A DNA stretch of 64,000 bases. It comes from Desulfosudis oleivorans Hxd3 (GTDB lineage Bacteria; Desulfobacterota; Desulfobacteria; Desulfobacterales; Desulfosudaceae). Location of the stretch: assembly GCF_000018405.1 (NCBI RefSeq), contig NC_009943.1, positions 3,785,001 through 3,849,000 of the forward strand. The letters are read 5' to 3'. How positions within the stretch are numbered: position 1 is the first letter of the stretch; each line of letters begins with the position of its first letter. The notes beneath the pieces are model-generated. The model was not told the origin of the DNA and did not search any database. It saw only the letters and a program-made list of their open reading frames with translations. Made by a program: the position numbers and the translations under genes. This document shows positions 7,644 to 62,858 of this stretch, one piece after another.

Positions 7644-7666
7644 AAATCGGGATCGGGATCGATTTT
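7644..7666. repeat. hexamer array H1 (GNNATC units)
   Basis: Three in-phase units of the form G-N-N-A-T-C (GGGATC, GGGATC, then GATTTT) follow AATC. Similar period-6 arrays lie in ten other intergenic loci of the window. Confidence 0.7.
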
Positions 7667-7697
7667 GTCCGGTTGCAACAACAGTCGTTTGCATTGT

Positions 7698-7766
7698 GTT
7701 TGTAGTGACGCCGTCAGGCGTTTACCGACCGGGCATGTTCGATGCCCTTACGGGCACACTACAAAC
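7698..7766. repeat. 69-bp REP/MITE-like element A1
   Basis: The element is bounded by the perfect inverted repeat GTTTGTAGTG / CACTACAAAC and contains two hairpins, ACGCC-GTCA-GGCGT and TGCCC-TTAC-GGGCA. Two further copies of exactly 69 bp and two half copies are present in the window. Confidence 0.9.
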
Positions 7767-11548: not shown

Positions 11549-11624
11549 GAATTTCGATTTCGATTTCGATACCGATACCGATACCGATACCGATACCGAT
11601 AGCGATAGCGATTTCTATTTGGAT
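11549..11624. repeat. hexamer array H2 (GATTTC/GATACC/GATAGC units)
   Basis: At least ten in-phase hexamers of the form GATNNC: GATTTC twice, then GATACC several times, GATAGC twice and GATTTC again. Units of one type are adjacent, as expected from local slippage. The array ends just beyond the stop of the permease gene. Confidence 0.9.
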
Positions 11625-11628
11625 TGGC

Positions 11629-19752: not shown

Positions 19753-19773
19753 GTTCGATACCGATTTCGATTT
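19753..19773. repeat. hexamer array H3 upstream of a phosphatase gene
   Basis: A short run GATACC-GATTTC-GATTTA ends 15 nt before the ATG at 19788 and just ahead of its ribosome-binding site. It is one of eleven period-6 loci. Confidence 0.65.
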
Positions 19774-19787
19774 ATAAAAGGACCGCC

Positions 19788-32319: not shown

Positions 32320-33876
32320 CTAGCCGCGCTTGTGGAACCGGGCCAGGTTGACAAGAATCTCGTCAAGCCCGGACAGCACCTCGCCGGCCGGTGTCACTTT
32401 GATGGTTGACTTTACTGTGGGTTTCCGTGAGGCCGCCAGCTTTGCCTTTTCTTCGGCCCGTTTCAGGCGCAGGGCGTTTTCCTCTTCATCGCGCTTGGCC
32501 CGTGCCTCGGCTTCCGCCTTTTTCTGTGCTTCGGCCTCTGCCTTGGCCTTGGCTTCGGCTTCGGCCTTGGCTTTGGCGGCTGCCTCGACTTTTGCCTTGG
32601 CATCGGCTTCGGCCTGGGCCTTGGCATCCATCTCGGCTTTTACCTTAGCTGCGGCATCGGCCTTGGCGGCTGCTGCCGCATCCACGGCCGGGGCTGCAGG
32701 AGCTGCTGCCGCTGCCGGAGCCGCGGCAGGTGCTGCCGGGGCTGCCTTGGGCGCAGCCTTGGGCGCGGCCTTTGGGGCCGCCTTGGGCGCCGCCTTGGGG
32801 GCCGCCTTCTTGGGCGCGGCCTTCTTTTCTTCTTCCTTTATGGTCAGGTCGGGCTTGGGCGCCAGCTTTTCGTAATCGATCTTGGCTTCTGCCAACAGTT
32901 TCTTGGCGCCGGCAATATCGTCAACCTTGCCGCCATCGGCCAGCTTGTCGATAAACGAACGGACCATGCGCACTGCTTCGGGATGGCGCATGAAAAGGAC
33001 ATCACTGCCCGACATCAGGTAGGAAACAGCGCCCACGGCCTCCATCAGAATGCCCCGCCGCTCGGGATCGCCCAGTGTGGGGGCCTCATCCGCGGTCAGC
33101 TTGGCTTCCTTGGACTTCCAGACCTCGTTGCCCAGGTTGTTAACCATGGGGAACTGAAGCTTGTCGTCGCCCTGAGCCATGGCGGCCATGCGCAGCCGCT
33201 CCATGACCGAATAGGTGTATTCCAGACCGTAGCCCAGACCGCCGGTGGTTGGATCCACCAGCACGCGGTCCATGGGCATGCCCAGGTTTTCCAGCAGAAT
33301 GTTGACCTGCTTGGCCAGGTTGACGTCGATGGGCGAAGAAGAGATCACCAGGTGACCGTATCCCATGGCAGCGGCGCCGATGGTTTTGTGGTTCTTCTCT
33401 TCCACCGGGCCCATGGTCAGGGTCAGGTCCTGGCAGTCTTCGGCGATCTTCTTGAAGACTTCGGCATCCTTTTCGACGTTGGCGGACCCCCAGATAATCA
33501 GGGGTACGTCAATGGCCGCGGCCACCTTTTTTACCGTGGCCACCGCGTCGGCGGGGCCGGCATTGTTGCCGTTGGGGTCGATGCTCTTGAGCTGGAGCAC
33601 GATCATGTCCGCGCCGTAGTCCTTAACGCACTTCTTGGCCCAGGCCGCCGGATCACCGAGAACATCCTTGAACGGCGCGGTCGCCGACTCGGGCCAGTCT
33701 TCCGGTTTTATGTCCCAGATTTCCATGGCCACCTTCGGCTTGTTGGGCATTTCGCCTTCGAACAGATAAAAGGGATAACTGGTTTCACCACCGACCTTTA
33801 CTGCTTTTTTCCCCTTGCCGATGGAGATCTCTTTTATGCTGCCGGCATAAGACTCTTTTGCAATTTCAAAACCCAC
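32320..33876 (-). CDS. acsD: corrinoid/iron-sulfur protein small subunit AcsD with long low-complexity C-terminal tail
   Basis: A GTG start with AAGGAGG at optimal distance gives 518 residues, against about 310-325 for the usual AcsD. Residues 1 to about 340 are the TIM-barrel domain (GGETSYPFYLFEGEMPNKP, DPTTGGLGYGLEYTYSVMER). Residues 341-518 are a tail: an AAPK/AAPA repeat segment (about 352-400), a long Ala/Lys/Glu stretch likely to be a coiled coil (about 400-485) and a well-ordered end with KVTPAGEVLSGLDEILVN. AcsD heads the operon and binds AcsC. The tail may tether the complex or another partner; its role is unknown. Confidence 0.9.
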   Translation of the reverse strand: MGFEIAKESYAGSIKEISIGKGKKAVKVGGETSYPFYLFEGEMPNKPKVAMEIWDIKPEDWPESATAPFKDVLGDPAAWAKKCVKDYGADMIVLQLKSIDPNGNNAGPADAVATVKKVAAAIDVPLIIWGSANVEKDAEVFKKIAEDCQDLTLTMGPVEEKNHKTIGAAAMGYGHLVISSSPIDVNLAKQVNILLENLGMPMDRVLVDPTTGGLGYGLEYTYSVMERLRMAAMAQGDDKLQFPMVNNLGNEVWKSKEAKLTADEAPTLGDPERRGILMEAVGAVSYLMSGSDVLFMRHPEAVRMVRSFIDKLADGGKVDDIAGAKKLLAEAKIDYEKLAPKPDLTIKEEEKKAAPKKAAPKAAPKAAPKAAPKAAPKAAPAAPAAAPAAAAAPAAPAVDAAAAAKADAAAKVKAEMDAKAQAEADAKAKVEAAAKAKAEAEAKAKAEAEAQKKAEAEARAKRDEEENALRLKRAEEKAKLAASRKPTVKSTIKVTPAGEVLSGLDEILVNLARFHKRG

Positions 33877-35111: not shown

Positions 35112-35225
35112 CGCCTGTTCTCCTTGCCTGTAAAGTTTTCTTGAACGAACCGGCATGCGGTCCGCCGCAATTGTTCTGCCTGTGTTTTTACCACAGGCCC
35201 AAAGGCAAGACAATCCCGCGTTTTA

Positions 35226-35330
35226 AATCGGGATCGACGTCGGGGTCGAGGTCGAGCACGAGTAAGAGTAAGAGTAAGAAAATAAGGTATGAGGTTATCG
35301 ATACCGATACCGATTTCGATGGGGGATACC
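35226..35330. repeat. hexamer array H4, mixed GNNRTC, GAGCAC, GAGTAA and GATNNC units
   Basis: In one phase it reads GGGATC, GACGTC, GGGGTC, GAGGTC, GAGCAC and then GAGTAA three times. After a short gap it continues GATACC, GATACC, GATTTC. Two unit types seen separately elsewhere are joined in phase here. Confidence 0.85.
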
Positions 35331-37242: not shown

Positions 37243-37289
37243 TAGAGTCTCCTTCAGCGGTGGTATATATCATCGTCCTTGTCCGTTTT

Positions 37290-37369
37290 CTTACCCTTGC
37301 TCGTACTCTTACTCTTAATCCCCTGTCAGCTGTTACTCGATTAAGATTAAGAGTACGAGCAAGAGTAAG
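37290..37369. repeat. long hairpin built of hexamer units (H5)
   Basis: Two 31-nt arms (37290-37320 and 37339-37369) made of CTCTTA/GAGTAA-type units are complementary at 29 of 31 positions around an 18-nt loop. It lies between a hydrolase stop and a methyltransferase start, both on the minus strand. Confidence 0.88.
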
Positions 37370-37405
37370 AGTAAGAAGAAGGGCCAGCACAGTCGGGGCC
37401 GTAAC

Positions 37406-38011: not shown

Positions 38012-38086
38012 CTGTTTCTCCGGTGTTCAGGGTCGTTGAATGGAAAATGCCCGGCCCTTGTATGGCAACCGGCCTCCATTGTTGTT

Positions 38087-38124
38087 TTCGATTTCGATCT
38101 CGATAGCGATAGCGATTTGGATTC
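38087..38124. repeat. hexamer array H6
   Basis: In-phase units GATTTC, GATCTC, GATAGC, GATAGC, GATTTG. The array lies between the hydrolase start and the RNase D stop. Confidence 0.8.
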
Positions 38125-47233: not shown

Positions 47234-47346
47234 AAATCCAAATCGAAATCGGGGTCGCTATCAATGGCCCCATACCCTATTTTCTTGCTCTTGATCATAA
47301 TCGTGACCCTGATCGAGCCTGATCCCGATAGCGACAGCGATTTGAA
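47234..47346. repeat. hexamer array H7 (two facing arrays)
   Basis: A left array of GNNATC/GNNGTC units (AATCGAAATCGGGGTCGC) faces a right array of GATNNC units (GATCCCGATAGCGACAGCG) about 60 bp away, so the two are roughly inverted relative to one another. Confidence 0.75.
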
Positions 47347-60669: not shown

Positions 60670-60725
60670 CAAAATCGGGATCGGGATCAATAGCCCTTAT
60701 TATTCGGATAGCGATTTCGATGGGC
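60670..60725. repeat. hexamer array H8
   Basis: GGGATC-GGGATC units on the left face GATAGC-GATTTC-GATGGG on the right across about 25 bp. The remaining part of the 60569-60847 gap shows no other feature. Confidence 0.7.
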
Positions 60726-62372: not shown

Positions 62373-62441
62373 GTTTGTAGTGACGCCGTAAGGCGTTTAA
62401 AAACCGGACAGCCCCGATGCCCTTACGGGCACACTACAAAC
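62373..62441. repeat. 69-bp REP/MITE-like element A4
   Basis: Full copy in the same orientation as A1: GTTTGTAGTG, hairpin ACGCC-GTAA-GGCGT, hairpin TGCCC-TTAC-GGGCA, CACTACAAAC; exactly 69 bp. Confidence 0.9.
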
Positions 62442-62634: not shown

Positions 62635-62664
62635 GAACAGGAAAAGCCCGGCAGCGCATGAACT

Positions 62665-62722
62665 TCGATTACGAGCACGAGCACGTGCTCGAGGAAGATT
62701 GAGAGTAAGAGTAAGAGAAGGG
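62665..62722. repeat. hexamer array H10 (GATTAC, GAGCAC and GAGTAA units)
   Basis: GATTAC, GAGCAC, GAGCAC, then an inverted GTGCTC, and further on GAGTAA, GAGTAA, GAG. Like H4 it joins the GAT- and GAG-type units. Confidence 0.78.
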
Positions 62723-62803: not shown

Positions 62804-62842
62804 AATCGATTTCGATACCGATAGCGATACCGATAGCGATTA
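62804..62842. repeat. hexamer array H11
   Basis: GATTTC, GATACC, GATAGC, GATACC, GATAGC, GATTAT in phase, ending 6 nt before the GGGAGAGG ribosome-binding site of the ubiA-like gene. Confidence 0.85.
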
Positions 62843-62858
62843 TAAGGGAGAGGTATTT

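Follow-up and report, generated by a model that had tools for sequence, protein, structure and literature searches.

At position 11,549 of the stretch of DNA analysed here (the window; 64,000 nucleotides of the Desulfosudis oleivorans Hxd3 genome), an array of hexamers keeps the frame GATNNC every six bases while its two middle bases change. Such an array could have grown by slippage at an independent site, could be held in place as a row of binding sites or as an RNA structure, or could be one copy of a repeat dispersed through the genome. Our results point to the last of these: the arrays are probably, though not certainly, copies belonging to a single family of short repeats, non-autonomous and dispersed between genes, that are REPIN- and STRR-like in kind. 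We found no description of these GATNNC arrays in the open-access literature.

Period-6 arrays in the window and the genome

A preliminary description had listed eleven period-6 loci in the window, and all eleven hold period-6 sequence, at most three bases from the starts that it gave (Table 1). Its formula, GATNNC/GNNATC, suits nine of them, several with just two or three perfect units, but not the loci at 37287 and 62664, which consist of a second hexamer, GAGNAM. The opposite-facing second arm that is also present at 35225, 47234, 60671 and 62239 was absent from that description. At 11549, the TATTTGGATT following the array is the distal end typical for the family.

Table 1. Hexamer arrays in the 64-kb window (positions are those of the window).
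Feature	Position	Strand	Composition
Short GNNATC array	7644..7663	-	AAATC GGGATC GGGATC GAT
Single-arm GATNNC array	11549..11625	+	Ten perfect units (in order, two GATTTC, five GATACC, two GATAGC, one GATTTC), then TATTTGGATT
Short array	19753..19774	+	GATACC GATTTC
Composite	35225..35322	.	Left GNNATC-type arm, GAGCAC/GAGTAA centre, right arm GATACC GATACC GATTTC
Second hexamer family (GAGNAM), not GATNNC	37287..37378	.	Inverted arms of about 44 nt, 84% complementary (GAGTAA/GAGCAC)
Single-arm array	38086..38123	+	GATTTC GATCTC GATAGC GATAGC, then GATTTGGATT
Two-armed element	47234..47344	.	Inner arms 17 nt, 88% complementary
Short two-armed element	60671..60723	.	Arms 20 nt, 75% complementary
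GNNATC arm, then degenerate GATNNC arm without loop	62239..62293	.	Five units in the GNNATC arm
Second hexamer family	62664..62717	.	GAGCAC/GAGTAA
Single-arm array	62804..62845	+	GATTTC GATACC GATAGC GATACC GATAGC

The window contains 17 overlapping (GATNNC)3 matches against none in 100 shuffles, and the whole genome, searched as one contig of 3,944,167 bases, contains 530 against none for the same pattern reversed. Chance is therefore excluded. In an even sample of 864 kb (the window together with 40 evenly spaced 20-kb blocks), 47 loci with period-6 arrays of four fixed bases belong to the CGAT/ATCG class, the next class having 7. Three or more GATNNC units were present at 48 loci of this sample, which by scaling suggests slightly more than 200 such loci in the genome. 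The GAGNAM family gave 12 matches at 11 loci in the same 864 kb (L056, L059 and L076 among its places outside the window) and at times directly adjoins GATNNC arrays.

Using gene calls from a dicodon caller (82.6% coding), 48 of the 50 placeable arrays of the sample are intergenic, two more at block edges being left out, which agrees with the claim that the arrays lie between genes. The two coding arrays consist mostly of words outside the family set, and the 17 "coding" arrays returned by an initial gene caller were mostly spurious short frames. The 48 intergenic arrays lie in 28 co-directional, 12 convergent and 8 divergent gaps (30.5, 7.6 and 9.9 expected by length), and at co-directional sites 17 share the strand of the genes and 11 oppose it. 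These counts give no firm gene-end or strand rule; the strand bias and gene-end preference that the preliminary description had put up for checking are not clear, and a rule for convergent sites is likewise weak or absent. Co-localization with other repeat families showed mild excesses, which we set aside because intergenic gaps were drawn uniformly rather than by length.

Other repeats share the intergenic space. Period-9 arrays of CTTCGTGNN occur between genes at L072, L075, L076 and in other intergenic regions (four strict matches in 864 kb), and dispersed palindromes (TTTGTAGTGACGCC.../CACTACAAAC, CATTGCGAG...CTCGCAATG, GTACTTTTCTTGGCGGCAAGAAAAGTAC) occur in the window at about 7690-7760 and 62380-62440 and in many sampled blocks. 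Longer tandem repeats (GCCTTG, GCCTTGGGCGCC) lie within a long open frame at 32528-32826 of the window.

Word set, carrier element and distribution

The composition of the arrays was studied in 130 distinct arrays of this genome with 611 units, which are not an unbiased set. The core is perfect in 592 of these units, and four words, GATCCC, GATTTC, GATACC and GATAGC (hereafter C, T, A and G), make up 541 of the 592, their middle bases being CC in 168, TT in 133, AC in 120 and AG in 120. The earlier remark on varying middle positions is thus correct but leaves out this restriction. There is also a preferred word order: compared with units shuffled within arrays, the steps C-G (49 vs. 29), A-G (32 vs. 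20) and G-T (36 vs. 26) are in excess, whereas T-T (3 vs. 17) and T-G (11 vs. 26) are depleted. Thus, the unit does change within a kept frame, as had been stated, but not freely, being drawn from a small inherited word set. Similarity between loci stops about 2 bp to the left of the array and about 12 bp to its right (GATTTGGAT...), so that for most loci the shared part is the array itself.

Some arrays, however, sit inside a dispersed element of about 110-130 bp. Searched with 271 bp around one array, the genome gave at least 50 matches, 40 out of 271 first-look candidates having been scored; at least about 24 of these matches are full or partial copies of this carrier with the array inside; unit number and words differ between the 24 copies. 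As a guard against retrieval through the array itself, 1.05 Mb was searched with the flanks only, and all 10 carrier copies recovered contained an array. In the carrier copies, the GAT..C core shows 2 substitutions in 504 positions, a count without the frame-shifted unit of L236 and the boundary unit of L251, or 6 in 516 with all parsed units. In contrast, the middle bases show at least 18 changes in 252, about the rate of the flanks; against a consensus made by eye, the latter have 80 differences in 1004 positions and 121 in 978 (8-12%). The difference between core and flanks is strong even on the 6/516 figure (p about 1e-14), so the core is either constrained or homogenized. These rates fit selection on a period-6 feature; nevertheless, both selection and homogenization among hundreds of arrays could explain the constancy of the core.

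Outside this genome, the distribution is patchy. Among the genome of the window and 39 relatives (40 in all), (GATNNC)4 was found in nine, the window's genome included; one relative has 768 matches, and neither of the two other members of the family to which the window's genome belongs has any. In a phylum set of 395 genomes, 40 match, again including its own (319 matches; next highest 206), although chance may account for lone matches in unrelated genomes, such as those in coding repeats. Word use varies by genome, but the word set is partly common to other families of the phylum, and the order TTC-CCC-AGC-TTC recurs in two other genomes (G416 and G215). In one contig of the latter (L273, G215 C1), arrays of 15-20 units alternate two words (TTC/AGC, TTC/CCC or CCC/AGC), as if recently expanded.

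Paired arms, turnover and inversion

Opposite-sense arrays at most 60 bp apart face outward in at least 100 cases and inward in two, when four sets are pooled. The ratio is 17:0 in this genome, 22:0 in a pair of congeneric genomes of another family (G171/G142), 3:1 in G416/G215 and at least 58:1 among the matches listed for public contigs of many phyla, a set fetched with a pattern favouring common words. The stem-loop energy is lower than in shuffles, with z below -2, in 89 of 100 outward pairs (for the public contigs, pairs among the matches listed). In the even sample, a partner lies no more than 90 bp away on the inner side of 9 of 51 arrays and on the outer side of none of 51, as compared with 31 of 2460 random 90-mers. 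Nevertheless, single arms are commoner in this genome, 42 of 51 arrays having no partner within 90 bp.

The two arms of an element are not matched to each other. In comparisons that took public-contig pairs from the matches listed, arms of the same element shared 20, 23 and 65 words, as against 23.1, 24.8 and 60.2 for swapped partners, and their duplex energies were no better than those of swapped arms, real pairs being slightly weaker in this genome. Because arms fit their partners no better than the arms of other elements, there is no sign of co-evolution between them, nor of homogenization of arms by template switching, and this result speaks against frequent intramolecular switching. Paired arms are not better preserved either (13 of 138 deviating units, against 57 of 473 in single arms; p 0.45).

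The history of individual sites was followed in G171/G142, whose flanks are about 73-91% identical. It is only for this pair that turnover and inversion can be shown, as a search for close relatives of the genome under study found none; the candidate, a Desulfosudis oleivorans FI88 MAG (L104), proved not to be syntenic, its DNA being only 69% identical over about 1 of 8 kb, and one of the two species labels may be doubtful. Of 23 sites examined, 21 were informative (L265 ran into a contig end and L296 gave no match); several G142 sites had been chosen for their likeness to the L267 element, and one flank search was run without the L263 flank and with shortened versions of several among the seven others. 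The element is present in both genomes at nine sites (L264, L267 twice, L302, L262, L304, L266, L292:1255 and L307), being weak in one of the two at L292:1255 and L307. Degenerate remnants were found at two (L301, L303), and at ten the element is absent from one genome (L260, L300, L261, L276, L278, L308, L275, L295, L298, L274). No clean empty site was seen among them, as sites without the element mostly differ over longer stretches. One comparison (L276:6932-7009 vs. L294) is a rearrangement breakpoint: at the place of the G142 element, G171 carries other sequence for about 9.5 kb.

In seven two-armed pairs, the loops could be compared between the two genomes. Three are clearly inverted: L264/L279 (13/16 identities inverted vs. 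8/16 direct), L267:1972/L292 (18/19 vs. 10/20) and L266/L317 (15/17 vs. 11/17). Two others are probably inverted, L304/L315 (global score 5 vs. -3, local 5 vs. 4) and L320/L292:1255 (global tie, local 10 vs. 5), one is probably not (L302/L310; local 9 direct, 5 inverted), and L267:4365/L292 allowed no call. Some loops are nearly palindromic, which weakens orientation tests, but the L267:1972 loop is not. Independently of the loop, a collinear 6.3-kb match (81% identity) contains 61 bp that align to the opposite strand at 92%, and a reversed 81-bp match at 74% covers the L266 element (L266/L317). The paired form has therefore been flipped in place between two genomes, suggesting copied, inherited repeat elements rather than chance microsatellites; together with the outward pairs and the turnover of sites, these flips argue for copied elements rather than slippage in situ at independent sites.

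Rival readings and relation to known repeats

The preliminary description had proposed slippage followed by selection for a period-6 feature. Part of this stands, as unit number varies in the 24-copy family and the core is far better conserved than the middle bases and flanks, but the fixed word set and order, the outward pairs, the turnover and the flips favour copied elements. Plain microsatellites, grown by slippage from independent GAT-rich seeds and altered by drift, seem highly improbable: they would explain the variable unit number and the long alternating arrays of some genomes (L273), but neither the 530 matches against none reversed, nor the four-word alphabet in preferred order, nor the excess of outward pairs, nor the related words in distant families. 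An RNA-level device is hardly more attractive and in our judgement very unlikely. Its transcribed stem-loops would serve as terminators or mRNA stabilizers, with selection on the stem, in keeping with the folding of 89 of 100 pairs and with one G142 array (L307) that precedes a terminator-like hairpin; however, the arms do not co-vary, most arrays here are single, co-directional sites show no strand preference and no Rfam match was obtained at gathering score within the window.

Tandem binding sites deserve more attention, although we consider them a rather doubtful explanation. A nucleoid-type or global regulator would read GAT..C every six bases, leaving the middle two free, and the arrays would be kept in place. 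The contrast of core, middle bases and flanks within the same carrier copies, the almost exclusively intergenic location and the outward pairing, which suits a head-to-head protein, are consistent with such a regulator, and IHF/HU-type regulators have been proposed for the paired tandem repeats of Geobacter metallireducens (PMC2700814). In contrast, the want of a strand or gene-end rule and the fast turnover of sites between congeners do not suit it, and it leaves the word order without explanation.

A family of copied elements, our preferred reading, would work as follows. The basic piece is an arm of about 3-10 tandem GATNNC hexamers from the small word set, running from its inner end outward as GATTTC, GATACC or GATCCC, GATAGC, GATTTC and GATTTGGAT, and where two arms stand back to back, separated by a loop of about 16-30 bp, they form a stem-loop. 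An enzyme would disperse the copies, slippage would add or remove units, and the pairing of arms may let replication switch templates, so that the element flips. The GAT..C core would be kept either by selection, if that enzyme or some DNA-binding protein recognizes it, or by homogenization among copies. No mobilizing gene was found for the arrays: a RAYT was considered, but arrays flank none of the four Y1_Tnp genes, and the closest that an array of at least three units comes to any of these genes is about 2.5 kb. More speculatively, and we think improbably, the arrays could represent a mobile repeat class with arms written in a hexamer "alphabet" around a protein-read core, spread across phyla, able to invert in place as a switch does, and mobilized by a so far unrecognized enzyme.

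The arrays thus offer a way to test how tandem repeats of such short units have come to occupy intergenic DNA in distant bacteria, which is also an open question for the STRR and TAACTGA repeats. The carrier copies allow core, variable and flank rates to be separated at one place, and the congeneric pair indicates that bacterial stem-loop repeats can flip and turn over within about 73-91% DNA identity, a time scale on which orientation and word content should be trackable in strains.

STRRs are heptamers of filamentous cyanobacteria, short tandem units dispersed between genes. The GATNNC arrays resemble them and the TAACTGA repeats in being short tandem units dispersed in intergenic DNA, but their period is six rather than seven bases, and they differ from STRRs in their fixed four-base core, small word set and frequent outward pairing. 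The TAACTGA direct repeats of Beggiatoaceae form intergenic tandem arrays, patchy across distant phyla, for which horizontal transfer was suggested (MacGregor, 2015, PMC4679880). They consist of one invariant heptamer, mostly placed right before start codons in one strain (PMC4679880), whereas the GATNNC arrays use a set of words and have no such placement rule. In Geobacter metallireducens (Aklujkar and colleagues, 2009, PMC2700814), tandem repeats are paired on opposite strands in dozens of copies; their consensus units, TCTCCGTS[Y] and MTYCTGA, are different, and the parts of that account used here describe one genome and do not cover inversion.

The GATNNC family works most like REPINs. 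REP sequences and REPINs are short extragenic repeats in hundreds of copies, in which inverted doublets with a spacer form hairpins and single copies are also common (Bertels and Rainey, 2011, PMC3116915). Inverted doublets are over-represented here as well, yet singles are commoner. A REP arm, however, is one 16-mer rather than a tandem array of hexamers, and REPINs flank a RAYT (Y1_Tnp) gene. The REPIN tags are lacking here: around the 130 arrays, GTAG is near one on the left and one on the right, and CGTC near six and one. REPIN doublets are also better conserved than singlets, which does not hold for paired arms here. Because the tag, the adjoining RAYT and the better doublet conservation are missing, we do not class the family as REPINs. 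Template switching between inverted repeats in yeast homogenizes arms and inverts spacers, the latter requiring an intermolecular switch (Abraham and Hazkani-Covo, 2021, PMC8604942). The in-place inversion between inverted arms is alike in the two cases, but the yeast examples concern short spacers in genes, whereas in the present elements the inverted stretch comprises the loop (16-19 bp) and, it appears, most of the element.
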